Source: a bacterium
GTDB lineage: Bacteria; Patescibacteriota; Saccharimonadia; Saccharimonadales; UBA4665
Length of the DNA: 45,083 bases
Direction of reading: 5' to 3'
Assembly: GCA_021833065.1 (NCBI GenBank)
Contig: JAKBGO010000004.1
Location: 1 to 45,083 of the forward strand
The position numbers were made by a program, and so were the translations under genes. The notes under the pieces are model-generated. The model did no database searches. It saw only the letters and a list, made by a program, of their open reading frames with translations, and had not been told where the DNA came from. Positions 2,234 through 29,455 of this stretch are shown in pieces; within the stretch, counting starts at the first letter, position 1; the number at the start of each line of letters is the position of its first letter.

Positions 2234-2350
2234 CTTTATTAAATACTCATTAATTTACTAAATTTATGGTTTACATTGATATATAAAGCTTGATAATCTG
2301 TTTTAAAAAATTTGTGCTTAAATCTCTAATTTACTATAAAATGAAGATGT

Positions 2351-3919: not shown

Positions 3920-5186
3920 AATCGATGAACTGATTGCCGAGTTTTGCCCAGATGGGGTTGGTTTTTTTAAACTTTCAGAAATTGCAGAAATCTCTGGCGC
4001 AGGTGTCGATAAGAAGATAGTTTCTGGTGAAAAGAGTGTCATCTTATTGAACTACATGGACGTCTACCGAAATCCAAAGTTAACCGTTGGCATTCCGACC
4101 ATGCAAGTGTCGGCGACTGATAAAAAAATGAACCAATGTAACGTCTTAAAAGGTGATGTTTTTATCACTCCCAGCTCAGAGGTTAAGAATGAGATTGGCT
4201 TTTCTGCCGTAGCGTTGGAAGACATGCCGGGAACAGTCTACTCCTACCACATCATGAGAGTGAGGTTGAACGAACCAGATTTTATGAAATCACAGTTCAT
4301 AAACTATCTCTTTCGATCCGATATATTGCAAAAGGAAATAAGCAAGCAAGCAAAAGGCTTGACGAGGTTCGGACTGACAAAAACGCAATGGGAGCAGCTA
4401 AGGATCCCCGTGCCGCCAATCGAAGTACAGCGCGAGATTGTGCGCTTACTAGACACATTTACGGAGCTAGAAGCAGAGCTAGAAGCAGAGCTAGAAGCAG
4501 AGCTGGATGCTAGAAAAAAACAATATGCATTTTACAGAAATCAGCTTTTTACATTTGACGAGTCGAGGCTGGCAACACGGACAACCATGTCTCATATCTC
4601 AAAAAGGATCTATTCAGGTGGAACTCCCAAAACAAATAAAACTGAATATTGGGAGAACGGTACAATCCCATGGATGAGCTCGGGTGAGGTAAATCTAGGA
4701 ACAGTGTATAAAACTGAAAAACTTATTTCTGAGATTGGATTTAAAAATAGTAGTGCAAAGTGGGTTCCAAAAAATTCTGTCGTTATTGCACTAGCAGGAC
4801 AAGGGAAAACTCGCGGAATGGTTGCTAGAACGAGAATAGATTTGACAACAAATCAGTCGCTGGCATCATTAACATTTGACAGAGAAAAGGTCAATGCCGA
4901 CTACGTATTTCATTTTCTTAAATCACAATATCAACAATTAAGACAAGTATCCTCTGGGGATGGAACTCGTGGTGGCTTGAATCTCCAGATGATCTCAAAT
5001 TATGGAATACCTATTCCATCAATAAATGAGCAAAATCGCATCGTTTCAATCCTAGATAAGTTTGATAAATTAACAACTGACATCTCAGAAGGCCTGCCTG
5101 CTGAGATAAATGCTCGCCGTAAACAATATGAGTACTACCGCAATAAACTACTGACATTCAAGGAGCTAGCTTGTGTCAAAGTATGA
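3912..5186 (+). CDS. hsdS: Type I restriction-modification system, specificity subunit
   Basis: Two target-recognition-like halves separated by conserved helices (ELEAELEAELEAELDARKKQYAFYRNQLFTF and LPAEINARRKQYEYYRNKLLTF). The ATG at 3912 overlaps the hsdM stop by 8 bp and is preferred over the upstream alternative start at 3891. Confidence 0.95.
   Translation: MSKIDELIAEFCPDGVGFFKLSEIAEISGAGVDKKIVSGEKSVILLNYMDVYRNPKLTVGIPTMQVSATDKKMNQCNVLKGDVFITPSSEVKNEIGFSAVALEDMPGTVYSYHIMRVRLNEPDFMKSQFINYLFRSDILQKEISKQAKGLTRFGLTKTQWEQLRIPVPPIEVQREIVRLLDTFTELEAELEAELEAELDARKKQYAFYRNQLFTFDESRLATRTTMSHISKRIYSGGTPKTNKTEYWENGTIPWMSSGEVNLGTVYKTEKLISEIGFKNSSAKWVPKNSVVIALAGQGKTRGMVARTRIDLTTNQSLASLTFDREKVNADYVFHFLKSQYQQLRQVSSGDGTRGGLNLQMISNYGIPIPSINEQNRIVSILDKFDKLTTDISEGLPAEINARRKQYEYYRNKLLTFKELACVKV
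4464..4511 (+). repeat. 12-bp in-frame tandem repeat (gagctagaagca x3 plus a degenerate fourth unit) encoding ELEA repeats in the HsdS spacer helix
   Basis: Units at 4464-4475, 4476-4487, 4488-4499 are identical; 4500-4511 is gagctggatgct. Confidence 0.97.
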
Positions 5187-8100
5187 TGTAGTAGCCGAGA
5201 ACCCTCATAGTACTGTCGTTGCAGAGTATGTCCCCGCCGTTCGCAGAGCTAGTGACTACCAAAGTGAGTCAGAGCTTGAACAGGCACTTATTAAACAACT
5301 TGAGAATCAAGCCTATGAATACATAAAGATCGATAGCGAAGAAAGCTTAATATCTAACTTGAGGAAGCAATTAGAGAAACTTAATAACTATCAGTTTAGT
5401 GATAAGGAGTGGCAAAGATTTAGTACTGAGTATCTTATTAATAAAGCAGATAACATTGAGGAAAAAACTAGCAAGATTCAAGAAGATAATCGCTACACGT
5501 TAAAACTTGATAATGGCACACCAAAAAACATAACAATAATAGATAAGGTCAACATTCATAACAATAGCCTACAAGTCATAAACCAATATGAGATTGAAGG
5601 AGTAAGAGCTAACCGTTATGACGTAACCATACTAGTTAATGGCTTGCCACTAGTTCACATTGAGCTTAAACGTAGAGGTGTTGACCTAAAAGAAGCTTTT
5701 AACCAGATAAATCGTTATCACCGAGATAGCTTCTGGGCGGGTAGCGGTTTATTTGAATATATACAACTATTTGTTATTAGTAACGGTACTCTCACAAAAT
5801 ATTACAGTAACACTACTCGCTCTAAACATGTCAAAGAAGCCGGTAACCTGAAGAGTAAAAGTAAGAAAACAAGCAACAGTTTTGAATTCACTAGCTGGTG
5901 GGCTGACGCAGATAATAAGCCTATTACTGAACTTATGGACTTTGCTCAAACCTTCTTCGCAAAACATTCACTTCTTAACATAATTACCAAGTACTGTGTA
6001 TTTAACGCAGATAAAGAACTGCTCGTAATGAGGCCTTACCAGATCGTAGCTACTGAGAGAATCTTAAATCGAATTGAAGTCAGCACTAATTATAAAAAGT
6101 TAGGCAGCATAGATGCTGGTGGCTTTATTTGGCATACAACTGGTTCGGGCAAAACATTAACTAGTTTCAAGACAGCACAAATCGCAAGCAAACTAGACTA
6201 CATAAACAAAGTCTTATTTGTAGTAGATAGAAAAGATCTCGACTACCAAACTATGAAAGAATATGACAAGTTTGAAAAAGGTGCCGCAAACAGCAATACC
6301 AGCACAGCTAAGCTAGCAAGACAATTAGAAGACCCTTCTGCTCGAATTATTATCACTACCATTCAGAAACTAGATAAATTCATTAAATCTAACCAAGGTC
6401 ATAAGATTTTTACCGACCATATAGTTTTAATATTTGATGAGTGTCATAGATCTCAATTCGGGGATATGCATCATTCAATTACGTCTGCATTTAAAAATTA
6501 CCACCTATTTGGTTTTACTGGCACTCCAATATTTGCAAAAAATATTTCAACTGGCGGTAGAGCTGACCTTAAAACCACCGAGCAGACTTTTGGAGATAAG
6601 TTACATACCTACACGATCGTTAATGCTATAACCGACAAAAATGTCTTGCCATTCCGTATTGATTATATTCGTACCGTTAAAGAAGCTGACAATATTGACG
6701 ATGAACAGGTTAGAGCCATTGATACTGAAGCCATTCTTAGCGCCCCCGAACGTATTACTAAGGTTGTTGAATATATACGGGATCACTTCGATCAAAAAAC
6801 TAAGAGGAATAATACCTATGAATTTAGGTCCACTCAAAATATAGGTGAAGTTGTTAATAGTAAAGATCGCTTAGCAATCGATGAGATAAAGGAAAGAGTA
6901 CGTCTCAGTGGCTTCAATTCAATCTTTGCCGTCAGCTCGATTGATACCGCCAAAAAATATTATCTTGAATTTAAGAACCAGCAAGCTAACGCACTGGAGA
7001 TCTCTAAACTTAAAGTAGCTACTATCTTTAGTTATGGAGTTAATGAGGACGAGGATTTACTCGATAACTTAGAGGATGAAAACTCAGACAGCACAGATCA
7101 ACTAGATATAGCATCCCGTGACTTTCTTGAAAATGCTATCAAGGACTACAATATACTATTTACAACTAACTACGACACCTCGGCAGATAAGTTCCAAAAC
7201 TACTATAAAGACGTAAGCCTGAGGATGAAAAATCGTGAGATCGATCTTCTAATTGTCGTTAATATGTTCCTTACTGGTTTTGACGCTACTACACTAAACA
7301 CATTATGGGTGGATAAAAAACTACGACTACACGGACTTCTTCAAGCCTATTCTAGAACTAACCGTATCCTTAATTCAGTAAAAACTTTTGGTAACATCGT
7401 TAGTTTTCGAAACCTTGAAAAAGCAACCAATGATGCTCTTGCCCTTTTCGGCGATAAAGAGGCAAGTGGAATAGTATTACTTAGGTCTTATTCTGAGTAT
7501 TACAACGGGTATGAAAGTGATGGGAAGCATATATTTGGCTACAAGGAAATTGTTGCTGAGCTACTAAATCGCTTTCCAATTGGACAACCAATAATCGGTG
7601 AGCAAAATCAGAAAAACTTTATAAAGCTTTACGGGGGAATCCTTCGTGGTAGGAATATCCTGTCTAGTTTCGATGAATTTGTCGGAAATGAAATCTTAAC
7701 ACCCAGGGATATACAAGATTATCACAGTGTTTACATAAACTTGTATAACGAGTTCCGAAATCAAAGCGACGGCGACAAGGAAAATGTTAACGATGATATA
7801 GTCTTTGAAATGGAACTTATTAAACAAGTGGAAATTAACATAGATTACATCATAGAGCTTATTCGTAAGTATCATGATAGTAACCAAGAGGACAAAGAAT
7901 TGCTTGTAGATATCAATAAAGCAATCGATTCTAGTATTGAACTTCGCAATAAAAAAGACCTAATCGAACAGTTTATAAGTTCACTTAATCCAACTTCATC
8001 CATCGATGATGACTGGCACACATTTGTCGATGCAAAAAAACTCGAGGAACTTGATAGAATCATAGCTGAGGAAAATCTTGATCATGACGAAACATATAAA

Positions 8101-8283
8101 TTTATAGAAAATGCATTCCGAGACGGGGCTGTTCAGTCAACTGGAACAGCAATAACAAAAATATTGCCTCCAGTTTCTCGATTCTCACAAAACAATGAAA
8201 GAGGAATTAAACGTGAATCAGTATTAGATAAACTCACTAATTTCTTTAACAGATTCTTTGATATTTCTAGCGGTAAATTATAA
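5173..8283 (+). CDS. hsdR: Type I restriction-modification system, restriction/translocase subunit
   Basis: Nuclease-domain 'HIELKRRG', Walker A 'TTGSGKT', helicase 'DECHRSQFG', 'FGFTGTP'; 14-bp overlap with hsdS. Confidence 0.97.
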   Translation: MSKYDVVAENPHSTVVAEYVPAVRRASDYQSESELEQALIKQLENQAYEYIKIDSEESLISNLRKQLEKLNNYQFSDKEWQRFSTEYLINKADNIEEKTSKIQEDNRYTLKLDNGTPKNITIIDKVNIHNNSLQVINQYEIEGVRANRYDVTILVNGLPLVHIELKRRGVDLKEAFNQINRYHRDSFWAGSGLFEYIQLFVISNGTLTKYYSNTTRSKHVKEAGNLKSKSKKTSNSFEFTSWWADADNKPITELMDFAQTFFAKHSLLNIITKYCVFNADKELLVMRPYQIVATERILNRIEVSTNYKKLGSIDAGGFIWHTTGSGKTLTSFKTAQIASKLDYINKVLFVVDRKDLDYQTMKEYDKFEKGAANSNTSTAKLARQLEDPSARIIITTIQKLDKFIKSNQGHKIFTDHIVLIFDECHRSQFGDMHHSITSAFKNYHLFGFTGTPIFAKNISTGGRADLKTTEQTFGDKLHTYTIVNAITDKNVLPFRIDYIRTVKEADNIDDEQVRAIDTEAILSAPERITKVVEYIRDHFDQKTKRNNTYEFRSTQNIGEVVNSKDRLAIDEIKERVRLSGFNSIFAVSSIDTAKKYYLEFKNQQANALEISKLKVATIFSYGVNEDEDLLDNLEDENSDSTDQLDIASRDFLENAIKDYNILFTTNYDTSADKFQNYYKDVSLRMKNREIDLLIVVNMFLTGFDATTLNTLWVDKKLRLHGLLQAYSRTNRILNSVKTFGNIVSFRNLEKATNDALALFGDKEASGIVLLRSYSEYYNGYESDGKHIFGYKEIVAELLNRFPIGQPIIGEQNQKNFIKLYGGILRGRNILSSFDEFVGNEILTPRDIQDYHSVYINLYNEFRNQSDGDKENVNDDIVFEMELIKQVEINIDYIIELIRKYHDSNQEDKELLVDINKAIDSSIELRNKKDLIEQFISSLNPTSSIDDDWHTFVDAKKLEELDRIIAEENLDHDETYKFIENAFRDGAVQSTGTAITKILPPVSRFSQNNERGIKRESVLDKLTNFFNRFFDISSGKL

Positions 8284-10137
8284 AGCCTTTTTGGATAATT
8301 TATAATCCTTCTTGCCAGATTTTTTAACTATTTTTTCAAGTTTGTTATTTCCAAGACTTAAATCAATTAGCTCTTTATTACCGCGATTATCAAACAGGTA
8401 ATATTTAACTTCTTTTTCTCTCTTATTAATTTTCACTTTTATATTTGAAGGTAATAATGCTTCTTGTACTGGTGTCTCTTCTTTATCATGCATCTTAGTT
8501 TCATTTAATATTGCGTCCTTAAGCTCTTTTGCCATAATAGACTTAAGTTTTGTTTGGGCTTGAGATTCGAAATTATCTATATGATTTAAAGACGCGAGTA
8601 GTCCAATTAAATGCCTTAAAACATTAGGGTAGTAACCTTGAATATTTGATGCATTATCAAATTTACCGTAAACTGCTTTATCAAATAAGCGTTCAAATAT
8701 CAGATCTTTGTATCTATCGTAAACTTGACTATTGGTACGATTAAGCAATAGGTACTCAACTAGCACTTGTCTCATATTTTCATCGGGTTCAGTTACATTC
8801 TCAAAAAGAATTGTTAGACTCTCTATTAACTCATAGACTTCTTGTGCTACCAAGCCAGTAAATGTATCTTGTTCAAAAATATTTTTTTTATTCTCAGCTT
8901 TAATTTCTTTGGTGTTATTCTTAAAACTATCAGGGTCACTATCCTTAAAAAAATCATTAATTATATTTAAATGGATTGTTCTGATTATATTAGCTTCAAC
9001 AGAATTTGTTATGTCGTCTGCGTATCGTCTTCTTGCTTTTCTATCCCCTGCAATTATACTGACTAAGCTACCTAGATCTCCCATCAGCACATCCAGGATA
9101 GCTCGTATATTCTGCAATACCTTATTATTTGGTTGTTTCTTGTAGCTCTCGATTATTGGCTGTAATAGTCTTGAAATCACATCTGCATAAGCATCAAGTG
9201 GAATATCGGTCTTGCTAACATACCAAGTGAGTTGGCTTGGAATTATAATTTGACGTCGAACAATATCATCATTCGCAAGCATATCGTATACGTTCGCAAC
9301 TCTAGCTATACCGTTATGTTTATCTTTTTCTGTGTATAGAAATGAATCTTGGTTGAGTACTAAATGCTTAACAATATTAGGGTATAAAACACGAGCTAAT
9401 TCACTCTGATATGCTTTTCCTAGCTTTACCTCTAGATCCGTTATTCTGTGCAAGAAGAATCTATTTTTGGTACATATATGTTTCATAACAGTTTCATCGG
9501 TAAGTATTCTATACAAAGTTTCAAATGTATAATTGGTACCGTTCGGCGACGGTGACTTTTTATCTTCCTGACCAGTCAAATTGTTTGGTAGGGCAGGATA
9601 GTACTTTAAAGCTGAGTATACCAAGGGTTTTAGATTAACGCGCGTTACCTCAACTACTTCTTGTATGTAGCCCCTAGCCAAAAACTCAGATGTTACATGC
9701 CAAAATTTTTCCGCAGATCGCGTAGTTGCAAGTCTCGTACGTTCAATCTGTAAATTCAATACCGTCCATTTGTTTTTTGGATATTTATTAAAATTAAATT
9801 TATAAATTGTTTTGTTTTTAATCAGATGACTGTAGTTAAAATGGGTGTATAAATACGCACCAATTAACAAGCCCAATGTAATAGCTATAAAACCTATGAC
9901 TTGTAAGAGATGATCTAGGGTTAATCCATCAAATACCGCGTGTTTAGTGTCGTGTATTAGTACTGAAGCTAACGGTAAAAAATACCCGATAGCCAGAAAA
10001 GATACGGCTGTATATTTTATAAATTTATTAGTTAAACTCCATACTAGCATATACCATGGCTTTATTAAGCCTATAACTGCAAGGATTAGACCAAAAAAAG
10101 TCAACATGTCACCAAGAGTCAAATATTGATACAACAT
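8278..10137 (-). CDS. Membrane-anchored protein of unknown function, convergent with hsdR
   Basis: 619-aa ORF with three hydrophobic N-terminal segments and a large soluble domain; tail-to-tail 6-bp overlap with hsdR; TATACT 6 nt upstream of ATG. Confidence 0.78.
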   Translation of the reverse strand: MLYQYLTLGDMLTFFGLILAVIGLIKPWYMLVWSLTNKFIKYTAVSFLAIGYFLPLASVLIHDTKHAVFDGLTLDHLLQVIGFIAITLGLLIGAYLYTHFNYSHLIKNKTIYKFNFNKYPKNKWTVLNLQIERTRLATTRSAEKFWHVTSEFLARGYIQEVVEVTRVNLKPLVYSALKYYPALPNNLTGQEDKKSPSPNGTNYTFETLYRILTDETVMKHICTKNRFFLHRITDLEVKLGKAYQSELARVLYPNIVKHLVLNQDSFLYTEKDKHNGIARVANVYDMLANDDIVRRQIIIPSQLTWYVSKTDIPLDAYADVISRLLQPIIESYKKQPNNKVLQNIRAILDVLMGDLGSLVSIIAGDRKARRRYADDITNSVEANIIRTIHLNIINDFFKDSDPDSFKNNTKEIKAENKKNIFEQDTFTGLVAQEVYELIESLTILFENVTEPDENMRQVLVEYLLLNRTNSQVYDRYKDLIFERLFDKAVYGKFDNASNIQGYYPNVLRHLIGLLASLNHIDNFESQAQTKLKSIMAKELKDAILNETKMHDKEETPVQEALLPSNIKVKINKREKEVKYYLFDNRGNKELIDLSLGNNKLEKIVKKSGKKDYKLSKKAL

Positions 10138-10438
10138 ACATAGAGTATACTACATCATATTTATAGTATTTAGCTAGTGCTTAAACTCTACGCAACTCAG
10201 TTATAAAATAGTTGTTTCGCGACACGTTCTCATTTTCGTAAATCATCAATTAAATCACATAATGGATATTAATGCCGAAAAACGCTAAAACAAGACACTG
10301 TTTGAAATTACTCGGGATTAGATGTAAAAAAAGTATAGTAATTCAACAATTTAATACTAATCAGTTTATTCCAAAAATGTAATATTCAAATTGTTATCAA
10401 TACGCTTCAAAGGACAAATATCCTAGTCTTCTTGTTTA

Positions 10439-11050: not shown

Positions 11051-11179
11051 TTCATCTGTTGGAATGTTCAAGACCGGTAGGCGGAGCCATAAAAGAAGAA
11101 GAAATTTGTATTTTATATTTCGAGAATCATATAAATAAATTCAAGATTAAATATAGATAATTTGATATGATTGTCTGTA

Positions 11180-12022
11180 ATGAATATTGGGATTATAGGA
11201 CAAGGTTATGTCGGGAAAAATCTTGCGGATTTTTTTGAACACAATAACTACGATATTGTAAGATATTCGCTCGAAAAAGAGTATGTAGATAATCTTAAAC
11301 AAATCAGCAATTGCAGTATCGTTTTCATAGCTGTTCCTACTCCTACTATAAACAATGTCTGCGATTTAAGTATTGTAGAAGAAGCATTGATTTTACTAAA
11401 AGAAGGTACTACTGCTGTTATAAAATCTACTTTAATACCAAATTCTGTTACTAAATTACAGGTTAAATTTCCGAAAATTAAAATATTTTACTCACCAGAA
11501 TTCTTGCGCCAAAAAAAAGCTAAATATGATACATTACACCCAAAAAGGAATATCATTGGAATACCTATTAACTCTGATGAGTATTATGAATTAGCAAAAA
11601 AGATTATTAGTATATTGCCAAAATCTAAAACCGAAATAATAACGGATTCAACCTCAGCAGAACTAATTAAATACATCAGCAATTTTTATTTTGTTATGAA
11701 ATCGGTATACATGAACATATTTTATGATTTCAGTAAACTACATGATGGGAATTGGAACGATATTTTAGATGGAATTACCAGTGATCCAAGAATTGGAAAA
11801 AGTCACACAAAAATTTTTTCAGACAAAGGAAGGGGTGCGGGTGGTAATTGTTTGATCAAAGATTCGGAAGCATTAATCAGTTATCTGAAAGAAACAATGG
11901 ATAGCAATCATTTACTATTATTAGAATCAATAAAAAATTTGAATTTAGACTTTTTATACAACTCAAAAAAAGATTTAGATATATTGTCTAAAATATACGG
12001 CAAGAAAGAAAACTACAAATAA
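11180..12022 (+). CDS. UDP-glucose/GDP-mannose dehydrogenase family protein, short form lacking the C-terminal domain
   Basis: 'IGIIGQGYVGKNLA' Rossmann motif, 'VFIAVPTPT', 'YSPEFLR', catalytic-Cys-like 'GAGGNCLIKDSEAL'; ~280 aa. Confidence 0.85.
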   Translation: MNIGIIGQGYVGKNLADFFEHNNYDIVRYSLEKEYVDNLKQISNCSIVFIAVPTPTINNVCDLSIVEEALILLKEGTTAVIKSTLIPNSVTKLQVKFPKIKIFYSPEFLRQKKAKYDTLHPKRNIIGIPINSDEYYELAKKIISILPKSKTEIITDSTSAELIKYISNFYFVMKSVYMNIFYDFSKLHDGNWNDILDGITSDPRIGKSHTKIFSDKGRGAGGNCLIKDSEALISYLKETMDSNHLLLLESIKNLNLDFLYNSKKDLDILSKIYGKKENYK

Positions 12023-12058
12023 AAATTTTTATTTGGTTTTAAAAATCTACAGAAAGTT

Positions 12059-12805
12059 TTATTTAAGTTCATTTAAAGCATCAGTGATTTTAACTGAAGG
12101 ATTGAATTTGTATTCGACGCCTCTAATGAGCACTACCGGTTTATTGGTACCCCTTTGACCCATAATCAGGGCTGCAGATGCTGCGAGCATATCACATAGA
12201 GTTTCTTCGGACTTACTAAATTTTCCGTCATCTGAAACAGATTCAGAAACTCTTAAGGGGGGAACACCGTAGACACCAATTGCAAGCTGAGTAGCTCCTT
12301 TTTTGTCCACACGTCCATCACTATCTGTGATTATTACCCCAACATTAGTGCCGGTAACTGCGAGAATGTGTTGACCTATTCTTTTAGCACTTTCGTCTGG
12401 ATTTTCGGGTAATAGAATTACTGTATCCTCATCAATTTTATCTACCCCGGAACTCGTTAACTTTAGCCCATTTGGTAACCATCCACCAATATAACTACCG
12501 TTAATTTCAAGACGGCTGTCGTCATTTTTTCCTGTTTGATCTATTATTACCTGAATCGTTCGTGGATCTTTCCTCGCTAATTTTTCATGTATTTTTGTAG
12601 CCGTTTCAGAAACTTTTATAGTTGAAAGTTTCAGCTTCCTATTCTCTGTTATTGATACAACTTTAGATGCTACGCAAAGAATATCGTTTTCTTGGAGTAA
12701 AAGACCTGAACCGGTAATTGCCTCAGAAATAATTGACTCTAGATTATGCCCATTTTCAATATGAGGTATATTTTCAAGGCTTTCAATCGTAATTTTATGA
12801 TTCAT
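12059..12805 (-). CDS. CofE-like protein (coenzyme F420-0:L-glutamate ligase family)
   Basis: 'ILCVASKVVS', 'GTNVGVIITDSDGRVDKKGATQLAIGVYGVPPLR' and 'DMLAASAALIMGQ' resemble the CofE family. Confidence 0.82.
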   Translation of the reverse strand: MNHKITIESLENIPHIENGHNLESIISEAITGSGLLLQENDILCVASKVVSITENRKLKLSTIKVSETATKIHEKLARKDPRTIQVIIDQTGKNDDSRLEINGSYIGGWLPNGLKLTSSGVDKIDEDTVILLPENPDESAKRIGQHILAVTGTNVGVIITDSDGRVDKKGATQLAIGVYGVPPLRVSESVSDDGKFSKSEETLCDMLAASAALIMGQRGTNKPVVLIRGVEYKFNPSVKITDALNELK

Positions 12806-13659
12806 ACTTTAATTCCTTCACTATTTAATAATAACTTAGTAGCCATAATACTACGAGAGGACATCTCATATTTATTAATTTCTGCGTGAGTTTCCACTGT
12901 AAAAATAAGTTCATTTTTACTATATTTTAAAATTTTGTGTATTATTTTGCTATAATCAATTATTCCTTCTCCTACAGGTACGTATTTCTTTATACCATCA
13001 TCCAATGTATAGTCTTTTAAATGGATGTACATTAATCTTGGTGAGATTCTTTTGATAAAATTTGTAGTAAAATCACTGTTTAACTCAATTAAATTAGCGA
13101 CGTCAAACCAAAATTTTAAGCGGTTATGATTGTTTAGTTCAAACACTTTAACTATCTCAGTCGGGTTATTAACTATACACACAGGTTCATTTTCTAGTAA
13201 TAAGTCAATTTTAGCCTGATTTGCATAATCTAAGGCAAAATTAAGAAGGGGATCACTAACAAATATCTCAGCTGCATTTTTAGTTTTTCCTAAACCAGAA
13301 AATATTCTAATTTTTGAAACATTTAATTCATTTGCAATATCTATGGTTCGTTTGATGTAATCTTTTTTTTGATTTAGATCTAATCTTGGATTAAAACCAA
13401 AACTATCATGAGCAATTTCTGGATCATCGAAATTTCTATACCATTTAAAAAGCGGTGAGGCAATTGATACGATTCCGATACCGCTATTTTCAATCTTATA
13501 TTTGAATTTTTTAATTTCCTCCGGACTCCAAAACACAAAATTTTTGTTATTAAGTGTTCTTAATTCGCCGAAATATAAATTGTGTTCTTTCATGAATTTT
13601 ATAGAAATATCTACATTTGGAGAAATTTCATCAAAATTTATTCCAAGTTTATGATTCAT
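12802..13659 (-). CDS. Sugar phosphate isomerase/epimerase-like TIM barrel (AP endonuclease 2 family)
   Basis: 'LLLENEP', 'KFWFDVANL', 'YIHLKDY', 'VPVGEGIIDY' typical of the xylose isomerase-like TIM barrel superfamily; 4-bp overlap with the cofE-like gene. Confidence 0.82.
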   Translation of the reverse strand: MNHKLGINFDEISPNVDISIKFMKEHNLYFGELRTLNNKNFVFWSPEEIKKFKYKIENSGIGIVSIASPLFKWYRNFDDPEIAHDSFGFNPRLDLNQKKDYIKRTIDIANELNVSKIRIFSGLGKTKNAAEIFVSDPLLNFALDYANQAKIDLLLENEPVCIVNNPTEIVKVFELNNHNRLKFWFDVANLIELNSDFTTNFIKRISPRLMYIHLKDYTLDDGIKKYVPVGEGIIDYSKIIHKILKYSKNELIFTVETHAEINKYEMSSRSIMATKLLLNSEGIKV

Positions 13660-14491
13660 TGTTTAATTTCCTAGCTAGTTTCGTGTATATAATTTTAAGC
13701 TCATCCTGACTTGCATCAATTTTTATGTGATCGAGCCATATATTTAATGCAGCAATAGCCTGATAAATCATCATCCAAAGTCCATCAACGGTTTGTGCTC
13801 CATTTTTTGCAAAGTATTTCAGTAATACTGTATCTAAAGGCTTAAATACCACATCGAAATATATTTTATTAGTTAAATCTAAGCCATCCAATTCAGAAAT
13901 TTCAAAAGGACTTTCATCATTGTTTATCATTCCTGTAGAAGTAGCATTAATAATCAAATTAGATGAACTTACTAGCAATCTGACGTCTTCGTAAGCTTTA
14001 ACTGAAATACCTTTAAGATCCTTTAGATCACCATTTTTTCGAGACAGTACATAGATTTTTTTAGCTCCTAATTCCTTGGAGGCAAATACCGCTGACCTAG
14101 CAGCTCCACCTGAGCCAAAAATAGTTACTGTATCTATTTTATAATGTGGAAATAAAGATTTTATTGGATTAATAATTCCTTTCCAATCGGTATTATAGCC
14201 GACCATGCTGTCCCCGAATTTAATCGTATTTACTGCACCAACTTTTTTTGCAGTGTTGCTTATTTTTTCAACAAACTGCATTACTTCAACTTTGTATGGA
14301 TGCGTAATATTAATTCCAGAGAAGTTTAGTACGTTAAAAGCATTAAGAACCTCAGGTAATTCATCAGAATTTACATTAATTTTTAAATGTTTGTATTCTA
14401 TTTTCTCATCTACAAGCTTAATCAACTCCTCAAATAAAATATGCGAAACACTATAGTCAGTTGATTTTCCAATTAAAGCTGAGTAATACAT
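13649..14491 (-). CDS. aroE: Shikimate/quinate dehydrogenase family protein
   Basis: 'INITHPYK', 'VGAVNTI', 'GYNTDWKGI', 'GSGGAARSAVFA', 'INATSTGM', 'DGLWMMIYQA' - AroE catalytic Lys and Asp motifs preserved. Confidence 0.87.
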   Translation of the reverse strand: MYYSALIGKSTDYSVSHILFEELIKLVDEKIEYKHLKINVNSDELPEVLNAFNVLNFSGINITHPYKVEVMQFVEKISNTAKKVGAVNTIKFGDSMVGYNTDWKGIINPIKSLFPHYKIDTVTIFGSGGAARSAVFASKELGAKKIYVLSRKNGDLKDLKGISVKAYEDVRLLVSSSNLIINATSTGMINNDESPFEISELDGLDLTNKIYFDVVFKPLDTVLLKYFAKNGAQTVDGLWMMIYQAIAALNIWLDHIKIDASQDELKIIYTKLARKLNNES

Positions 14492-14494
14492 TAT

Positions 14495-14523
14495 TTGACT
14501 CTTGTAATTAATTATTATACAAT
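14495..14523 (+). promoter_or_regulatory. Sigma70-like promoter TTGACT-N17-TACAAT driving the plus-strand operon
   Basis: TTGACT 14495-14500, 17-nt spacer, TACAAT 14518-14523; AGGAG at 14534-14538 before the GTG at 14548. Confidence 0.6.
14514..14519 (-). promoter_or_regulatory. -10 box TATAAT for the divergent aroE-like operon, overlapping the plus-strand promoter
   Basis: Plus-strand ATTATA at 14514-14519; weak TTTACT -35 at ~17 nt. Confidence 0.45.
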
Positions 14524-14547
14524 AAACTATAGTAGGAGTAAAGACCA

Positions 14548-15615
14548 GTGCGGGTTCTAATTATCGGCTACGGGAAAATTGGAAGAATAAAAGCTTTTTT
14601 ATGGAAAAAGCTCGGATTTAAGGTCTACATATTTGATATTAATAATAACGCAGAGATTAGAGCGCTGAAAGATGGCTTCAAACTATTCGATGGAGTAATT
14701 GATAAAGACACCATTGTAGATATTTCAAGTTCATCTGGCCAACATTTCAATAGCTTAAAATGGTTAATTGATTATCCATTAACTAATTTACCAAAACTTA
14801 TTCTAATCGAAAAGCCCCTATTCTCATCTGACACAGAAAACAACCTGTACAAAAAACTATTAAAAACTAATAAACAAAAAAACTTGATGGATCGTATCTA
14901 TTTGAATGACTCATACTACGAATCAGAGGGATTAAAATTACTAGTTAATTCAATTGATTCTAAAATAAAAAAAATAATAATTGAGCTTTCAAAAAATAGA
15001 TTACATGACATCGAGAATGGAAGATTCTCAGACGAAGAATTGATGTCAATAGGTATTGAAGTCCCGCATATTTTAGCAGTTCTTCAAATATTAAATATAG
15101 ATTTAAAAAAAATAGGTGACATACAATCAAGAATTTTTAAAGATTCTGAAAAAGAACAGAACCAGGGAACAGTAATTAAGTTCAAAAATGAAGAAACTAC
15201 AATTGAAATTTCTTCATTTTTAGGTGATTTTAAAATTTCAGATGATACTATTGCATTTGCAAACAATGATGTAAGAAAAGTAATCATCGAAACAATAAAT
15301 AAAGACTTTTTACTTGAATTCGACCCAATAAAAGGATTACCAAGATATCATTCAAGATTATCAACCAATGATAAACAAAATAAAGTTAACAAAGTAGTTA
15401 CTATCCAAGACAACCATTTGGTTGCTCATATGAAAAAATTAATAGTTGGTGAGCAAAATAAGAAATTAACCGGATACGATAATGCAGAATTTTTAGCCAG
15501 ACTTCTTATAGATTTTAAAAACAGAAGCCACATACTAAAAATTAATTTTAAAAATATAGCCGGAAACAGCACATTATCTGTGTTGAATGAAAACGAGGGC
15601 GTGCAAAATGCGTAG
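14548..15615 (+). CDS. Gfo/Idh/MocA-like NAD(P)-binding oxidoreductase
   Basis: 'MRVLIIGYGKIGRIKAF' Rossmann motif and 'LILIEKPLF' (EKP motif typical of Gfo/Idh/MocA). Confidence 0.75.
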   Translation: MRVLIIGYGKIGRIKAFLWKKLGFKVYIFDINNNAEIRALKDGFKLFDGVIDKDTIVDISSSSGQHFNSLKWLIDYPLTNLPKLILIEKPLFSSDTENNLYKKLLKTNKQKNLMDRIYLNDSYYESEGLKLLVNSIDSKIKKIIIELSKNRLHDIENGRFSDEELMSIGIEVPHILAVLQILNIDLKKIGDIQSRIFKDSEKEQNQGTVIKFKNEETTIEISSFLGDFKISDDTIAFANNDVRKVIIETINKDFLLEFDPIKGLPRYHSRLSTNDKQNKVNKVVTIQDNHLVAHMKKLIVGEQNKKLTGYDNAEFLARLLIDFKNRSHILKINFKNIAGNSTLSVLNENEGVQNA

Positions 15616-16846
15616 TTTCGAGACCAGTTCAGATATTATTTTCCCCGATAAATTACCTACAGAAGTTGTCGAACGTAAGGGAATTGGCCATCCCGACACT
15701 CTTGCCGATGGGATTGCAGAGTCAACTGAAATCGCTTACGCCAATTATTGTCTAGAAAATTTTGGTATAATCCTACATCATAATCTAGATAAGGCTATGC
15801 TACTAGGAGGCCTTTGTCTGCAAAAATTTGGAGGCGAAGAATTTACCAAACCCATAAAACTGTTATTCATGGGTCGGGCCAGTAGATCGTTCGGATTTCA
15901 TGAAATTCCATTAGAGGATATCCAACGAACAAGCGCTCAGGACTATTTATCCCGTGTTATGCCTCATCTCGACACGAATAACAGTTCCATGTATGAAGCA
16001 ACTACATTAACAACAACAAACAGCACAAGACCCTATTGGTTTAATCCTAGAACTATCAGCGATCTGCCTGAATATACCGATAGTTCTCCGAAAGCAAATG
16101 ATACAGCAACTATGATTAGTTATTGGCCAATGACAAATACTGAAAAGTTAGTTTTAGACCTAGAGGGGTACTTTTATGAAAATAATGATGTTGGATTACC
16201 AGTACCGAGATTCGATTACATTGGTCAAGACATAAAAGTTATGGCAGTTAGAAATAATAATTTAATAAATGTAACTATTTCAATACCTCAAATAACCACA
16301 AATACTCAGAACGAAAAGATTTATTTTGAAAGGGAAAACTATATCCAAAACTTGTTACAAGATTATGCGGAAATGTTAGTTGATGATCGAATTGATGTAA
16401 GGGTTAACGTAAATCCTCAAACTAAAAACAATAACCCCCGACCGTACTTGGTAACCAGTGGCTCATGCATTGACTTCGGCGAGGAAGGGGCAGTAGGAAG
16501 AGGTAATAAAACTCACGGCATAATATCAAGTTTTAGACCGAATACCATGGAAGCTCCCCACGGAAAGAATCCAACATATTTTGTAGGAAAAATACTAGGA
16601 TACCAAGCGGATTTAATATCTAAGCAAATATATAATAGATTAGGTACCAGATGCCAAGTCGTTATGCAGGCCAACCTTGGAGATGATCTATTTGAGCCTT
16701 CTAAAATCATTGTTTCTACCGAAAATCAAATCGACAAATCTGTAATCGAAAATGTTGTCTTAAACTGTTTAGAGCTAGGAAGATTAACGACTAGTTTGAT
16801 TATTGAAGAGGAATATTTTCTACCAAGGACGAATGCCTGGAAATAA
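15608..16846 (+). CDS. Archaeal-type S-adenosylmethionine synthetase
   Basis: 'VERKGIGHPDTLADGIAE' and 'GSCIDFGEEGAVGRGNKTHGIISSFRPNTMEAPHGKNPTYFVGK' characteristic of the archaeal AdoMet synthetase family; ATG at 15608 overlaps the upstream stop. Confidence 0.93.
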   Translation: MRSFETSSDIIFPDKLPTEVVERKGIGHPDTLADGIAESTEIAYANYCLENFGIILHHNLDKAMLLGGLCLQKFGGEEFTKPIKLLFMGRASRSFGFHEIPLEDIQRTSAQDYLSRVMPHLDTNNSSMYEATTLTTTNSTRPYWFNPRTISDLPEYTDSSPKANDTATMISYWPMTNTEKLVLDLEGYFYENNDVGLPVPRFDYIGQDIKVMAVRNNNLINVTISIPQITTNTQNEKIYFERENYIQNLLQDYAEMLVDDRIDVRVNVNPQTKNNNPRPYLVTSGSCIDFGEEGAVGRGNKTHGIISSFRPNTMEAPHGKNPTYFVGKILGYQADLISKQIYNRLGTRCQVVMQANLGDDLFEPSKIIVSTENQIDKSVIENVVLNCLELGRLTTSLIIEEEYFLPRTNAWK

Positions 16847-16848
16847 TT

Positions 16849-17850
16849 ATGTCTTACGAAAATTTTGAATCCATTCAAAATAGGAATTTTAAATACAATA
16901 TCATTTTTAACGAAGTATCGATTAAAGTCGACAGTGAACATGAGTTCCAAGGAGGTAATCTTCTAGATTTTGCAAATGAGATTACTGGAGCAAAAATAAA
17001 TTTCGATAGCTCAGTTTTACCCGATGGAATAATCGAGTATCTAGTTTCTGATGATATTGGCATCGAATACGATAATAACGAAAAGAAATTAAAAATTATT
17101 GGGCCCGTAGATTTATTCGGAACTGGAAGAGCTATCTCTTACATCGCTCAATACATGGCAGAATGTTTTAGAGCAGAGAACTCGGGAAGACTACTTGTTC
17201 ACTCTGCCGCCGTGAAACATCCTGAGCAAGAGAAATCATATCTAATGTTTGGAGATAAGGGATCTGGAAAAACGACTATTGCATTAAGATTATGTCACCA
17301 ATTCGGTTACGATCTAATAGGTAATGATCAAGTAATTGTTGGAGAGAAAAACGGCACCCTTATTACGAGCATCGGTAATCAATGGTTCGACGTTAGGAAA
17401 ACTTCATTCAATTCAGACCCATATGTGAATAATCTCTTAAACTACTTAAAAATTGATGACCCTACCAAAGCCAATTGGAATACAAAATTTAGAATTTATC
17501 CGGATTCATTAGGAATTGAAGTCTCAGAAAAAGATCTACCGTTAAAAAAAATGTTTCATATTCGGATAGATGGCACTCAAAAAAAAATACATATTTCACC
17601 GTGGAAAGGGATTCAAAGAAACCTTATATTGCACGAATATTTTGGTAGACACATAACTGGACAATCCACTCCATTTCAAGATGACAGTGGAAATTATTTA
17701 GGATCATTACCTTTAATCAATACAGTTATGGCCCTAAAGACACGGGATAGGATAGTAAAAACAGTTATGGGCCAGGGAGTAACAGAAATATTCTCTCCTT
17801 CAAGTGAAGAGGCCGCAAAATATATAGCTGAGTCTGGAGATGAATTTTGA
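16849..17850 (+). CDS. HPr kinase-like P-loop ATP-binding protein
   Basis: 'LLVHSAAV' followed by Walker A 'FGDKGSGKTTIALRL' and 'LIGNDQVIV', as in HprK-related kinases. Confidence 0.75.
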   Translation: MSYENFESIQNRNFKYNIIFNEVSIKVDSEHEFQGGNLLDFANEITGAKINFDSSVLPDGIIEYLVSDDIGIEYDNNEKKLKIIGPVDLFGTGRAISYIAQYMAECFRAENSGRLLVHSAAVKHPEQEKSYLMFGDKGSGKTTIALRLCHQFGYDLIGNDQVIVGEKNGTLITSIGNQWFDVRKTSFNSDPYVNNLLNYLKIDDPTKANWNTKFRIYPDSLGIEVSEKDLPLKKMFHIRIDGTQKKIHISPWKGIQRNLILHEYFGRHITGQSTPFQDDSGNYLGSLPLINTVMALKTRDRIVKTVMGQGVTEIFSPSSEEAAKYIAESGDEF

Positions 17851-18938
17851 TGATTGCTATTGGCATACCCACACTTAATGAGGCAGACAATATTGCGAAA
17901 CTAGTAAAAAAGATTGAAAAAAGCGCAATTGAGCTTTCGATAAATATCATAATAATCAATTCTGATAGCTGCAGTGAAGACAACACATCAGCAATGTTTA
18001 AAAAAACGAAGACCAAATTTCAAAAAATATCCCTTAACTCTCAAAGAATTGGTAAAGGATATAACATTAAAAATATACTGGATTATATAGCCGCTCGGAA
18101 AGATATTTCGTATTGTTTACTTGTTGATGGTGACGTAAAATCATTCGAAACTGAATGGTTAAAAAAACATATTGATGCAAGCAACAATAAGGCTGATTTT
18201 GTCATCCCGAACTATTCAAGATACACAATTGAAGGTAATACCACAAACCACTTTGTTTACCCCTTGTTATTTTCACTCACTCTAGGAAATGCTCCCTACC
18301 AGGGTATTGCTGGAGATTTTGGCCTATCAATTAAATTTATAAAGCTTTTAGAAAACCTTAATTGGCCGGATTCTGCCTATGGATATGGAGTTGATATATT
18401 TTTAACATTACAAGCGATATTTAAGAAAATGAACGTCATGGAAGTGGAACTTGGTAAGAAAATACATAAACCAAGTTTTAATAAAATGATTAATATATTC
18501 AAAGAGGTAGCAACTAGTTATTATGATTTTAGAAAATCTGTTGATATAAAAATTTCAGACCAGTTTTTCGTGACAACTGTTAATAACATTAATTTATTAA
18601 AGTCTAAGCCCTTGATAAATCAAGACATTGAGGATAGAGAGAGAACTGCTATTAAGCTATTAAACCACAATATACGAAACGGTATTCAAATAATAAATTC
18701 ATCAACTTTAGATTATAGTATAGATATTAATACCTGGGTAAATATTATATTAAAACATGAGGAAAGTATCGATCACTATACTTCTGAAGAACTTTCTGAT
18801 TCAATTACTCCATACTATCTTTTAAGAGTAATAACTTTCTTAAAAGAAAAAAACGATCCACAAAAAACTGAAAAAATTATTAGGCAAACAGCACAAAGTC
18901 TATTAACTGGATTGGAGAAAAAATATGTTTACAGTTGA
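17850..18938 (+). CDS. Family 2-like glycosyltransferase, possibly related to glucosyl/mannosyl-3-phosphoglycerate synthases
   Basis: 'IGIPTLNEADNIAKLVKKI', 'LLVDGDVKSF' (DxD), 'GIAGDFGLS', 'YGYGVDIFLTLQA'. ATG overlaps the upstream TGA. Confidence 0.75.
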   Translation: MIAIGIPTLNEADNIAKLVKKIEKSAIELSINIIIINSDSCSEDNTSAMFKKTKTKFQKISLNSQRIGKGYNIKNILDYIAARKDISYCLLVDGDVKSFETEWLKKHIDASNNKADFVIPNYSRYTIEGNTTNHFVYPLLFSLTLGNAPYQGIAGDFGLSIKFIKLLENLNWPDSAYGYGVDIFLTLQAIFKKMNVMEVELGKKIHKPSFNKMINIFKEVATSYYDFRKSVDIKISDQFFVTTVNNINLLKSKPLINQDIEDRERTAIKLLNHNIRNGIQIINSSTLDYSIDINTWVNIILKHEESIDHYTSEELSDSITPYYLLRVITFLKEKNDPQKTEKIIRQTAQSLLTGLEKKYVYS

Positions 18939-19773
18939 TGAAAAATTAGCACTTGATGTTTTTAACAATGGTGCGGCGTCTTGCTTGAATTCTATTATTG
19001 ATTGCAAAACCTACCACTTTGTTAGACCAATCCTTAGAATAATAAACGCTGTTTCATCACCGTATTCTCATTTTGATTTTTACGAAAAAGTGATCACTCA
19101 ATCTTTCTCTTCAAAGAAAAACCCAAATATACTTATAAGCGGTGCAGCAGATTATTCGTGGATTATTAAAAACTCCCCATTACTGAGGGCTATCAATAAA
19201 TTTAATAATAAAAACATTAAAATTAAAATAATAGATGCCTGTATGACTCCTCTAATATTTAGTTTAAAGGCATCCAAATATTTAAATAACATCACAGTTA
19301 GCTTTGAGACCTTAGATATTCCGCATAAGACTCTCAATAATCAAAAATACGATATGATAATCACAGATGCGTTTTTAACGCAATTCAGGAGCAAAATTGA
19401 AAGATTAAAAATCTTAAAATCATGGAGAGAAATGCTGAGTGATACAGGAGTTGTGATTACAACGGCTCAAATATCCAGTGGATTATCTACTCGAAATTCA
19501 CATACAACAAATAAATTTATAGAGAATACAATGCAGCTTTTTGATTCTAGCGTATTTCCTGATTCTCTGAACATAAATCGTAGCGAATTCGAAAAAATTG
19601 TTTTAGAATATGCTACTCCAACTAAAAGCAGAGTCTACAAAAGTGAAGAAGAGCTGGTAAACGAAATATTGATTTCAGGTTTAAAAATTAAAAATATATA
19701 TAATAATAAAATATACTCTGAAAGTAGCAAAAAAACACTTGATTATAGAGAATTAGTTTTATCGATAAAATAA
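18925..19773 (+). CDS. SAM-dependent methyltransferase-like Rossmann protein
   Basis: 'PNILISGAADYSWI', 'IKIIDACMTPL', 'YDMIITDAFLTQF', 'WREMLSDTGVVITT' pattern; last gene of the coupled operon. Confidence 0.62.
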   Translation: MFTVDEKLALDVFNNGAASCLNSIIDCKTYHFVRPILRIINAVSSPYSHFDFYEKVITQSFSSKKNPNILISGAADYSWIIKNSPLLRAINKFNNKNIKIKIIDACMTPLIFSLKASKYLNNITVSFETLDIPHKTLNNQKYDMIITDAFLTQFRSKIERLKILKSWREMLSDTGVVITTAQISSGLSTRNSHTTNKFIENTMQLFDSSVFPDSLNINRSEFEKIVLEYATPTKSRVYKSEEELVNEILISGLKIKNIYNNKIYSESSKKTLDYRELVLSIK

Positions 19774-19836
19774 AATTTCTATTCTGAGTAATCAATTAAC
19801 TACAACACACCAGAATATATTAAACTAGATTTCTAA

Positions 19837-19932
19837 AAATTTTATCTTCATCTATTAGTTTTCTTATTTCTTTTATATCTATTAATATATCTTCGTTTAA
19901 GATTATATTAAGGAACTGCCTCTCGAGCCAGA
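19837..19932. repeat. Dispersed decayed repeat, copy R1
   Basis: 'atctattaatatatcttcgtttaagattatattaaggaactgcctctcgagccaga'; minus-strand reading WLERQFLNIILNEDILIDIKEIRKLIDEDKIFRNLV*. Confidence 0.65.
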
Positions 19933-19953
19933 CCAAGCAGTGAAAAAGGGTGG

Positions 19954-19978
19954 CCGGGTTCCTAGACCCGGTTTTTTT
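19954..19978 (+). terminator. Rho-independent terminator CCGGGT-tcctag-ACCCGG-TTTTTTT
   Basis: Perfect 6-bp GC-rich stem, 6-nt loop and 7 T's, downstream of the operon ending at 19773. Confidence 0.85.
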
Positions 19979-22915: not shown

Positions 22916-23335
22916 TTAATTAAGTATCTTTTTTTCTGGAAAGACCCAGTATTTGTACCAGAGCCAACTCCAAAAGGTAAAAAATATACCGGATATGAAG
23001 AGACCGATATAAGGAGATATACCAATTTCTTTAAGTCCATAAATCATAAGGTAGTCGAGTATAAAACCGATACTTTCAATAAATACATACCTTCCAGCGT
23101 GTCGCATCTCGCTTAAATGGATCTGATCTGAAAATGCCCATAGCCTTTGTATGACATAATTCGTACTCCAACCAATTACATCGCCGAAAATCTTGGAAAG
23201 AAACCATCCCCAGTGAAATAAACTATAACCAACAGCAAATAGTCCATATCCAACCCAGAAATATATACTACCTCCTACCAAATACTTCAAAAATCGTTTA
23301 GTATCTTTGTGTTTTAATAATGACTTAAAAGGCAT
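22916..23335 (-). CDS. GtrA-like membrane protein, copy 1
   Basis: 'RFLKYLVGGSIYFWVGYGLFAVGY...KYWVFPEKK' GtrA family, four TM-like segments. Confidence 0.85.
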   Translation of the reverse strand: MPFKSLLKHKDTKRFLKYLVGGSIYFWVGYGLFAVGYSLFHWGWFLSKIFGDVIGWSTNYVIQRLWAFSDQIHLSEMRHAGRYVFIESIGFILDYLMIYGLKEIGISPYIGLFISGIFFTFWSWLWYKYWVFPEKKILN

Positions 23336-23364
23336 TTAATATACTATATACTACTTGAGGTTCC

Positions 23365-23452
23365 TTCTTTATCTATTCAACTTCTTAGCTCAATAATATC
23401 TACAAATAGTTCTTCGTTTACGATTATATTAATAAACTTTTCGTCTAGTCAG
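23365..23452. repeat. Dispersed decayed repeat, copy R2
   Basis: 'tctacaaatagttcttcgtttacgattatattaataaacttttcgtctagtcagg' aligns with R1. Confidence 0.65.
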
Positions 23453-25866: not shown

Positions 25867-26688
25867 ATGAAGTACATGAAAGTTGATACTCCTGCTATTG
25901 GTGTAGTTACGCTTCGATTGAATACGGATGAAAATTCATTTATGCCCGCAGCAACTGGTTTATCTGGAGATAAACTAGTCGAGTTAAGGGCGTCAATGGA
26001 AAAATTAGAAATTGAAGCTTCTGTAGATACAAAGCCGGGCTACATTTCTCGAGCAGCTGGTCCGAAAAAGAGTATGGCAATAAAAAATGCTAGATATGAG
26101 GCTATCGAAAGAATGTCTCTATCGTGTTGGTGGTCTATGGGTAAATCGACTCGTTGGAAAGTTAATACGAAAATTACCAAAAGACTTTTGAGAACTTATT
26201 TTCCTAGTGAAGATTTTCAACTTAATATTGGTTTTGTAGAACCTGTTTGTGGCACTGGTTATGTGGCCGTATCTTTACTACAAAATACAAAACTATTTCC
26301 TTATGCTGTGCTGGGGAGTTGCTACTCAAGTAGTCCAAAATCTGCTATGAAAAAAGCATTTTTTGAGTCTATCCAATCTTGGTGTGCAACAAATTGGTTG
26401 CGTAAAAACAACAAAAAACTAATGCCTTACTGGGATTTAGGTGAAATTCGTAGACGATCAGTAGAAATTTTATCCTCACCAGATCTAGATTTTGAAAATG
26501 AAACGAATTTTGATAATCAAAAATTACTTGAATTCATACCGATAAAAAATATTCAGGTTAAACCCCATTCAGGAAAATACGTGGCATGGGTTTATCTAGA
26601 TAAATCTATAGATTTGAATTTTGAAATAACAAAGTTAGTAAAAAGAAAAAAAGAGACTACCAAAATTTTTTCGGAATATAATTATTAA
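25867..26688 (+). CDS. YcaO-like protein (short)
   Basis: 'SRAAGPKKSMAIKNARYEAIERMSLSCWW' resembles the YcaO SxGKG..A..EAIER region; 'LGSCYSSSPKSAMKKAFFESIQSW' resembles the second YcaO helix. Confidence 0.6.
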   Translation: MKYMKVDTPAIGVVTLRLNTDENSFMPAATGLSGDKLVELRASMEKLEIEASVDTKPGYISRAAGPKKSMAIKNARYEAIERMSLSCWWSMGKSTRWKVNTKITKRLLRTYFPSEDFQLNIGFVEPVCGTGYVAVSLLQNTKLFPYAVLGSCYSSSPKSAMKKAFFESIQSWCATNWLRKNNKKLMPYWDLGEIRRRSVEILSSPDLDFENETNFDNQKLLEFIPIKNIQVKPHSGKYVAWVYLDKSIDLNFEITKLVKRKKETTKIFSEYNY

Positions 26689-26718
26689 ACAACTTATTGT
26701 CTATATAAAATAAATTAG

Positions 26719-26786
26719 TTATCTACTTTATATCAATTAACATATTTTCATTTAGGATTATATTAAGGAACTTCTCGTCGAGCCAA
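26719..26786. repeat. Dispersed decayed repeat, copy R3
   Basis: 'tatcaattaacatattttcatttaggattatattaaggaacttctcgtcgagcca' aligns with R1. Confidence 0.65.
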
Positions 26787-28922: not shown

Positions 28923-29339
28923 TTAAGTATCTTTTTTTTCTGGAAAGACCCAATATTTGTACCAGAGCCAACTCCAAAAAGTAAAAAATATTCCGGATAT
29001 AAAGAGACCAATGTAGGGTGATATACCGATTTTTTTAAGTCCATAAATCATCAGATAATCAATAATAAAACCGATACTTTCAATAAATACATATCTTCCA
29101 GCGTGTCTCATCTCGCTTAAATGGATATGATCTGAAAATGCCCATAGTCTTTGTATAACATAATTCGAACTCCACCCAATAACATCACCGAAAATCTTTG
29201 ACGGAAACCATCCCCAGTGAAACAAGCTATAACCAACAGCAAATAGTCCGTATCCAACCCAGAAGTATATGCTTCCGCCAACCAAATATTTCAAAAATCG
29301 TTTAATATCTTTGTGTTTTAATAATGACTTAGTGGGCAT
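28923..29339 (-). CDS. GtrA-like membrane protein, copy 2
   Basis: Nearly identical to the 22916-23335 product (about 7 substitutions plus a different C-terminal tip). Confidence 0.85.
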   Translation of the reverse strand: MPTKSLLKHKDIKRFLKYLVGGSIYFWVGYGLFAVGYSLFHWGWFPSKIFGDVIGWSSNYVIQRLWAFSDHIHLSEMRHAGRYVFIESIGFIIDYLMIYGLKKIGISPYIGLFISGIFFTFWSWLWYKYWVFPEKKDT

Positions 29340-29368
29340 TCAATATACTATATACTACTTATGGCAAT

Positions 29369-29455
29369 ATCTTTATCTACTAGATTTATCATCTTTTTAA
29401 ATCTAAGAATATATCTCATCTGAAGATTATGAAAATGAACTATTTATCGAGCCAA
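29369..29455. repeat. Dispersed decayed repeat, copy R4
   Basis: 'aatctaagaatatatctcatctgaagattatgaaaatgaactatttatcgagccaa' aligns with R1-R3, more diverged. Confidence 0.5.

Follow-up and report, generated by a model that had tools for sequence, protein, structure and literature searches.

A conserved operon of Saccharimonadales bacteria that may make a glycosylated, glutamate-linked small molecule

Introduction

The F420-0:L-glutamate ligase CofE adds glutamates via GTP-dependent carboxylate activation (PMC8498797). We examined a bacterial operon in which a relative of this enzyme is encoded beside relatives of shikimate dehydrogenase (AroE), of mannosylglycerate synthase (MGS) and GpgS, of the HPr kinase/PEPCK superfamily, and of archaeal-type methionine adenosyltransferase (MAT). 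The operon is located in contig JAKBGO010000004.1 (assembly GCA_021833065.1) of a member of the family UBA4665 (Patescibacteriota, Saccharimonadales); the whole of the 45,083 nucleotides analysed is called the window here. Small Patescibacteria are generally credited with very little biosynthesis of their own. Even so, this lineage maintains 8–9 kb of pathway genes under purifying selection, among them those for a second S-adenosylmethionine (SAM) synthetase and for an AroE isolated from any shikimate pathway.

That the biosynthetic operon is a real and conserved unit is nearly certain, and it stands apart from its host's housekeeping MetK, shikimate and F420 pathways. We tentatively favor, at somewhat below an even chance, a model in which it makes a soluble small molecule based on a hydroxy acid that would undergo phosphorylation, glycosylation, amide linkage to glutamate and, in some cases, methylation, and in which the genes have been spread by gene transfer. 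The gene set, its conservation and the apparently intact catalytic motifs can be read from the sequences, and from these we infer what kind of product is made. An earlier sequence-only reading of the window had proposed an undescribed biosynthetic cluster, and the cluster is indeed genuine and apparently undescribed. The open-licence papers searched contained no description of the gene set, although subscription journals, antiSMASH and MIBiG lay outside the scope of the search, which makes this weak evidence of novelty.

Organization and conservation of the operon

The nine consecutive open reading frames (ORFs) called by the sequence-only reading were all recovered in place and on the same strands. 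Three core genes on the minus strand encode an AroE-like oxidoreductase of the shikimate-dehydrogenase family (13649–14491), a xylose-isomerase-like TIM barrel protein (12802–13659) and a CofE-like GTP-dependent glutamate ligase (12059–12805), and overlap as had been claimed, by 11 nt (TIM/AroE) and 4 nt (CofE/TIM). Across a divergent intergenic region of 56 bp (14492–14547), they face a plus-strand operon of five genes, of which the first four belong to the core: a Gfo/Idh/MocA-type oxidoreductase (14548–15615), the MAT (15587–16846), a P-loop kinase of the HprK/PEPCK superfamily (16849–17850), a GT-A glycosyltransferase (GT) related to MGS and GpgS (17847–18938), and a class-I SAM-methyltransferase-like protein (MT; 18925–19773) found only in the clusters of this family. 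Plus-strand neighbors overlap or are separated by a 2-nt gap, as also described, with spacings of -29 (Gfo/MAT), +2 (MAT/kinase), -4 (kinase/GT) and -14 (GT/MT); the first becomes about -8 if the MAT start is the ATG at 15608, the start used in the same-genus genome G039. The ninth ORF, an accessory, lineage-specific plus-strand gene of 283 codons (11171–12022), encodes a short UDP-sugar dehydrogenase-like protein (UGDH). Pfam cut-offs were passed by UGDH, CofE, the TIM barrel, AroE, MAT and the GT (as GT2), and were not reached by Gfo/Idh, the kinase or MT.

The gap between the AroE and Gfo/Idh genes holds one promoter-like site per strand (14495–14523, plus; 14542–14514, minus), each with 10 of 12 matches, and such sites are no commoner in the region than in shuffled sequence (48 versus 47.6). 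The terminator that had been placed after the plus operon corresponds to a plus-strand hairpin at 19952–19973, with a 9-bp stem and a T run, 179 bp 3' of the last stop codon; it was the best of five candidates (shuffle mean 4.4).

The sequence-only reading had staked its proposal on conservation of the neighborhood in relatives. We found the arrangement of AroE-TIM-CofE divergent from Gfo-MAT-kinase-GT-MT, eight genes in one conserved order, in six genomes that represent four genera of the family. MAT occurred in 7 of the 93 family genomes and in this shared arrangement in six of those seven; the seventh (G064) had a distant MAT in an unrelated gene context. The claim of a nine-gene unit did not survive this comparison: the short UGDH was present only in two same-genus genomes (two other family genomes carry a full-length UGDH beside MT), and four of the six family clusters have an inositol-phosphatase-type gene between GT and MT, which the window cluster and that of its same-genus relative lack. 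UGDH, absent as well from distant clusters, was therefore rejected as a core gene. CofE was rejected as a cluster-specific marker, a CofE-family gene being present in 22 of the 93 family genomes and in many of them standing alone.

The cluster is also the sole long block common to the two same-genus genomes (window 11084–19930, 92.8% identity), a block whose left edge is set by the end of the G039 contig and whose right edge is a degenerate 89-bp repeat (19842–19930). Between these two copies dN/dS was 0.06–0.29 for all nine genes (0.12 for UGDH), and all nine are thus under purifying selection. A MAT match was present in 11 of 380 genomes of the phylum and a full-length kinase in six, every one of which also has a MAT match (hypergeometric P ~1e-10), although five of these six kinases were first found beside MAT, so that only the absence of the kinase elsewhere is independent evidence. 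Three weak kinase relatives in phylum genomes sit elsewhere, in other contexts.

Two other origins for the locus were considered and rejected. No match to a phage record was found, which argued against phage cargo, and none of the nine proteins (0/9) matched PADLOC families at E 1e-4, which argued against a defence island.

Distribution beyond the family

Outside the family, TIM, MAT, kinase, GT and CofE recur as a core, in most cases accompanied by AroE and Gfo/Idh (loci L032–L034, L042, L043, L046, L056, L057, L009, L012, L155 and L156), with the CofE gene adjacent in most homologous clusters. Distant Patescibacteria (L032, L033, L034, L046) have CofE, MAT, kinase and GT together. In Shapirobacteria, AroE, MAT, kinase, CofE and GT accompany a TIM::Gfo/Idh fusion protein; Moorena has the same fusion and likewise AroE, MAT, CofE and the kinase, but its contig showed no GT. 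The order TIM, Gfo/Idh, MAT, kinase, GT, CofE is found in Nocardia wallacei, Sphaerimonospora and three Streptomyces plasmids, and two of the three plasmid clusters end in a shikimate dehydrogenase. A plasmid of Halorussus salilacus carries TIM, Gfo/Idh, AroE, MAT, GT, a methyltransferase and the kinase within ~13 kb, some with intervening genes. Such conservation of gene order between genera, and even between distant phyla, shows that the genes are not neighbors by chance, and patchy spread by gene transfer is the best explanation of its distribution. The presence of such a cluster in Patescibacteria, which the sequence-only reading had found surprising, was borne out, but it is not confined to them, its core being shared with Streptomyces plasmids, a cyanobacterium and a haloarchaeon.

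As the same core is present on Streptomyces plasmids, a search for the product can turn to hosts that are open to culture and engineering, and the chemistry of an uncultivated lineage is therefore directly testable. In Streptomyces sp. NBC_01304, for instance, the operon comprises seven genes (L155, 7312–13763). The pathway may show what such small cells exchange with their neighbors.

Some smaller observations concern these distant clusters. A SpoT/MESH1-type HD hydrolase gene lies beside the kinase in two Patescibacteria clusters (L034, 7804–8400; L046, 12196–12744). Apparently decayed copies of the cluster were seen on plasmids of Streptomyces sp. Mut1, as a GT fragment with CofE (L158, 7131–8506), and in S. 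clavuligerus pSCL3, as a scrap of GT (L157, ~7001–7162).

The ligase, kinase and glycosyltransferase

The CofE-like protein (PF01996, 159 bits) resembles the F420 enzyme in fold and sequence, matching PDB CofE 2phn at E 1e-55 in a profile search, and would likely form the same GTP-dependent glutamate amide on a hydroxy-acid carboxylate. However, it scored below the F420 equivalog cut-offs (149.5 versus 180.65 bits for TIGR01916; 155.3 versus 274 for NF009809), and the window genome, which is 84% complete, has no canonical CofD, with only a partial match of 25 bits against a cut-off of 257. On these two grounds F420 synthesis was ruled out.

In the kinase the P-loop GxxxxGKT is invariant, and the AlphaFold2 model (predicted local distance difference test, pLDDT, 86.7) matched PEPCK in Foldseek (E 1e-9, TM-score ~0.5); this Walker A motif and predicted fold place it in the HprK/PEPCK P-loop superfamily. 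It has both features in common with HPr kinase, PEPCK and the HprK-related kinases, including kinase B of the GAK system, but it falls under every curated cut-off (28 bits versus 200 for TIGR04355) and is partnered with CofE and MAT.

The nearest PDB profiles to the GT were those of the MGS/GpgS group (2bo4, E 2e-13; 4y6n, E 4e-12), although it misses the NCBIfam MGS/GpgS cut-off. It has in common with these enzymes a GT-A domain, the DxD motif and Arg, Thr and His at aligned acceptor positions, and DxD, R125, T133 and H207 are invariant; we take the aligned Arg and Thr to bind the acceptor carboxylate in MGS. A phosphatase partner, in clusters of relatives, is a further likeness, whereas the relation of the GT itself is remote and its gene is embedded with CofE, AroE and MAT. 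Profile and fold matches support the families from which glycosyl transfer, glutamyl ligation and phosphorylation had been predicted.

The sequence-only reading had offered two kinds of product, a glycosylated, methylated small molecule or a modified surface glycan, and these genes bear on the choice. Modification of a cell-surface glycan or glycolipid would suit both the GT2-fold transferase of the cluster and the UDP-sugar dehydrogenase encoded next to it in four genomes of the family. We nevertheless consider it improbable, as no flippase, polymerase, ligase or undecaprenyl-phosphate transferase was present in any cluster inspected, the GT is nearest the soluble MGS and GpgS, which act on small hydroxy acids, UGDH is missing from distant clusters, and CofE with MAT is unusual for glycan pathways. 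The small-molecule half of the proposal was retained, and the glycan half was weakened.

It is also conceivable, although rather unlikely, that the product serves the cell itself as a compatible solute or cofactor-like molecule (a glycosyl-glycerate, or an F420-like compound with a glutamate tail) and not in signaling or antagonism. The kinship of the GT with mannosylglycerate and glucosylglycerate enzymes and the lack of a transporter inside the operon are consistent with this, as is the fact that glutamate tails of the CofE type are a hallmark of cofactors, F420 among them (PMC8498797). However, an essential cofactor would not be expected to occur so patchily (6 of 93 family genomes) or to be encoded on plasmids, and no enzyme dependent on such a cofactor was identified.

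The SAM synthetase and the methyltransferase

The cluster MAT (PF01941, 264 bits) has all main motifs of the archaeal-type enzyme (ERKGxGHPD, HHNxDK, GxxGRGN and GKNP) and scored 446.6 bits against NF003362, slightly under the cut-off of 481. It differs from that enzyme in being a second SAM synthetase, placed within a biosynthetic operon, and in forming its own clade. A separate bacterial MetK is encoded on contig C27 of the window genome, and the idea that the MAT is the sole SAM synthetase of its host was rejected on this ground. MATs from clusters outside the family are 34–43% identical to the one in the window. In a quickly built tree, which has several long branches, the cluster MATs numbered 19, and 17 of these formed one set (SH-like approximate likelihood ratio test, 99), apart from archaeal housekeeping MATs and from those of a second cluster type; the remaining two, from clusters of MAT, HAD phosphatase and kinase, fell just outside it. 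A similar pairing was seen on the Shapirobacteria contig L042, where a bacterial MetK (9079–10236) lies ~6 kb from the archaeal-type MAT (2288–3517), with a BpsA-like gene at 574–1527 near the two SAM synthetases.

MT matched no sequence family. Its AlphaFold2 model (pLDDT 85.5) matched methyltransferases in Foldseek (E 7e-11), and we are confident of a predicted class-I methyltransferase-like fold, the activity being putative. The dedicated SAM supply that had been proposed is upheld, with a MAT separate from MetK, and the predicted fold of MT would suit the proposed methylation.

An alternative use for the MAT is that it catalyzes the first committed step toward a SAM- or nucleoside-derived metabolite, in which Gfo/Idh and TIM would act on the ribose or the amino-acid part of SAM before glycosylation and glutamylation. 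MAT belongs to the core even in clusters without a methyltransferase (L009, L043, L056, L057, L155), and a second, non-orthologous cluster type also joins archaeal-type MAT, TIM barrel and Gfo/Idh. This type occurs in Streptomyces, Actinomadura and Acrocarpospora and, more loosely, in Ca. Megaera (L011, 8976–16117; L048–L050; L013), so that its hosts are actinobacteria and, for a part of the set, a plasmid from Rickettsiales. Most members have a P-loop kinase and a GT as well; a GT2, a thymidylate-kinase-like protein, a carbamoyltransferase and NUDIX are usual, the last two in place of the CofE and AroE of the window cluster. TIM, GT and kinase gave no tblastn cross-match between the two types. 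Because two unrelated gene sets share the MAT-TIM-Gfo/Idh theme, we kept SAM as a building block open, but judged it unlikely: the motifs of the cluster MAT are those of ordinary SAM synthetases, AroE would be left unexplained, and methyltransferases do occur in several clusters.

Redox and isomerase enzymes

AroE (PF08501) is a full-length member of the family of shikimate dehydrogenase and 5-ketofructose reductase, with the SxS motif and with Lys and Asp residues that we presume to be catalytic; SxS, T63, K67, N88, D102 and Q244 are invariant (alignment A4). It differs from shikimate dehydrogenase in its isolation from the shikimate pathway and, in the main cluster type, in the replacement of a Tyr, presumably the position that binds the shikimate carboxylate, by Phe (F216, in 8 of 8 aligned members of this type). 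The AroEs of Patescibacteria, Moorena and Halorussus are of this one type, whereas those of Streptomyces are a different lineage, in which two members keep the Tyr and the scores pass the curated shikimate-dehydrogenase cut-off (245 and 293 bits versus 235). No chorismate synthase (PF01264) was found in the window genome, and dehydroquinate synthase (PF01761) was absent from all 11 cluster genomes, of which eight are at least 90% complete; an ordinary shikimate pathway was accordingly ruled out.

Gfo/Idh, identified by PDB profile search, has the EKP motif and an invariant H174. In the TIM barrel (PF01261), E156, D186, H213, K215 and E256 are invariant (alignment A3), so that a metal-type set of E, D, H and E is conserved together with HxKD. 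Its nearest PDB entries were AsbF, UlaE and IolI, and the positions aligned to two AsbF His residues, which we assume to be catalytic, are Glu and Asn. The dehydroshikimate-dehydratase role suggested for this protein is doubtful, as two invariant glutamates fit a keto-sugar epimerase or isomerase at least as well. The short UGDH keeps the GGNCLIKD motif and consists of the N-terminal and central domains, without the C-terminal domain.

A model of the pathway

In the model that we favor, of a soluble hydroxy-acid conjugate, AroE, Gfo/Idh and TIM would carry out oxidation, epimerization or isomerization, and reduction of a small polyhydroxy acid. We favor a ring acid of the shikimate or cyclitol type as this substrate because shikimate dehydrogenases have apparently been recruited to the cluster at least twice, and this apparently independent recruitment hints at a shikimate-type reaction within the pathway. 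The kinase would phosphorylate an intermediate, from which a partner phosphatase (of FIG or HAD type in relatives) would later strip the phosphate; the GT would add a sugar to the hydroxy acid, and CofE would join L-glutamate to the carboxylate of the acid, just as it acts on the lactyl carboxylate of F420-0. The second SAM synthetase may feed methylation or another SAM-using step, performed here by the last gene, MT. The product would be a soluble conjugate bearing glycosyl, glutamyl and, in this clade, methyl groups.

Several observations count against this model. The Tyr to Phe change in AroE of the window family falls at the usual shikimate-carboxylate position, and 5-ketofructose reductase also has the AroE fold, which leaves room for a substrate other than a ring acid; if a ring acid is used, small genomes would need to import it. 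The TIM residues do not separate dehydratase from epimerase, the Gfo/Idh of Actinobacteria and Moorena is only remotely similar to that of the window, and several clusters retain MAT but have no MT, so that methylation is not obviously the universal use of SAM. No inositol-phosphatase-family gene was found anywhere in the 84% complete window genome.

A bolder version, which we regard as a long shot, is that tiny host-dependent bacteria, Streptomyces plasmids, cyanobacteria and haloarchaea share a new class of specialized metabolite or cofactor, with MAT in the pathway itself supplying a SAM-derived building block that is combined with a sugar, a glutamate tail and a ring acid of the shikimate type. 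On this view, episymbiotic bacteria could have exchanged it with actinobacterial partners.

Flanking sequence

Degenerate repeats of ~89 bp, 70–80% alike, lie between gene blocks of the window at 19842–19930 (the right edge of the shared block), 23363–23451, 26697–26785 and 29368–29454, with further copies in L015 (5277–5375, 6751–6840). They mostly end in GAGCCA, and their minus strand reads as the remains of a single peptide (WLDEKFLNIILNED...); a mobile or cassette-like element may have left them behind as scars. Two near-identical genes for small membrane proteins, GtrA-like by eye, lie 6 kb apart (22916–23335 and 28923–29339; 90% DNA identity over 300 nt), each adjoining a copy of the repeat. 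A YcaO/TOMM cyclodehydratase-like ORF at 25867–26688 gave weak matches (PF02624, E 0.003; TIGR03604, E 3e-4) and has a small ORF beside it and, downstream, a 196-aa ORF that may encode a membrane protein, so that this region is a possible peptide-modification locus. Upstream of the cluster, a putative type I restriction-modification operon (HsdM, HsdS, HsdR; by eye) occupies 2351–8283, and at the other end of the window an exact 90-bp tandem repeat (44867–45083), likely a repetitive coding region, runs off the window end.

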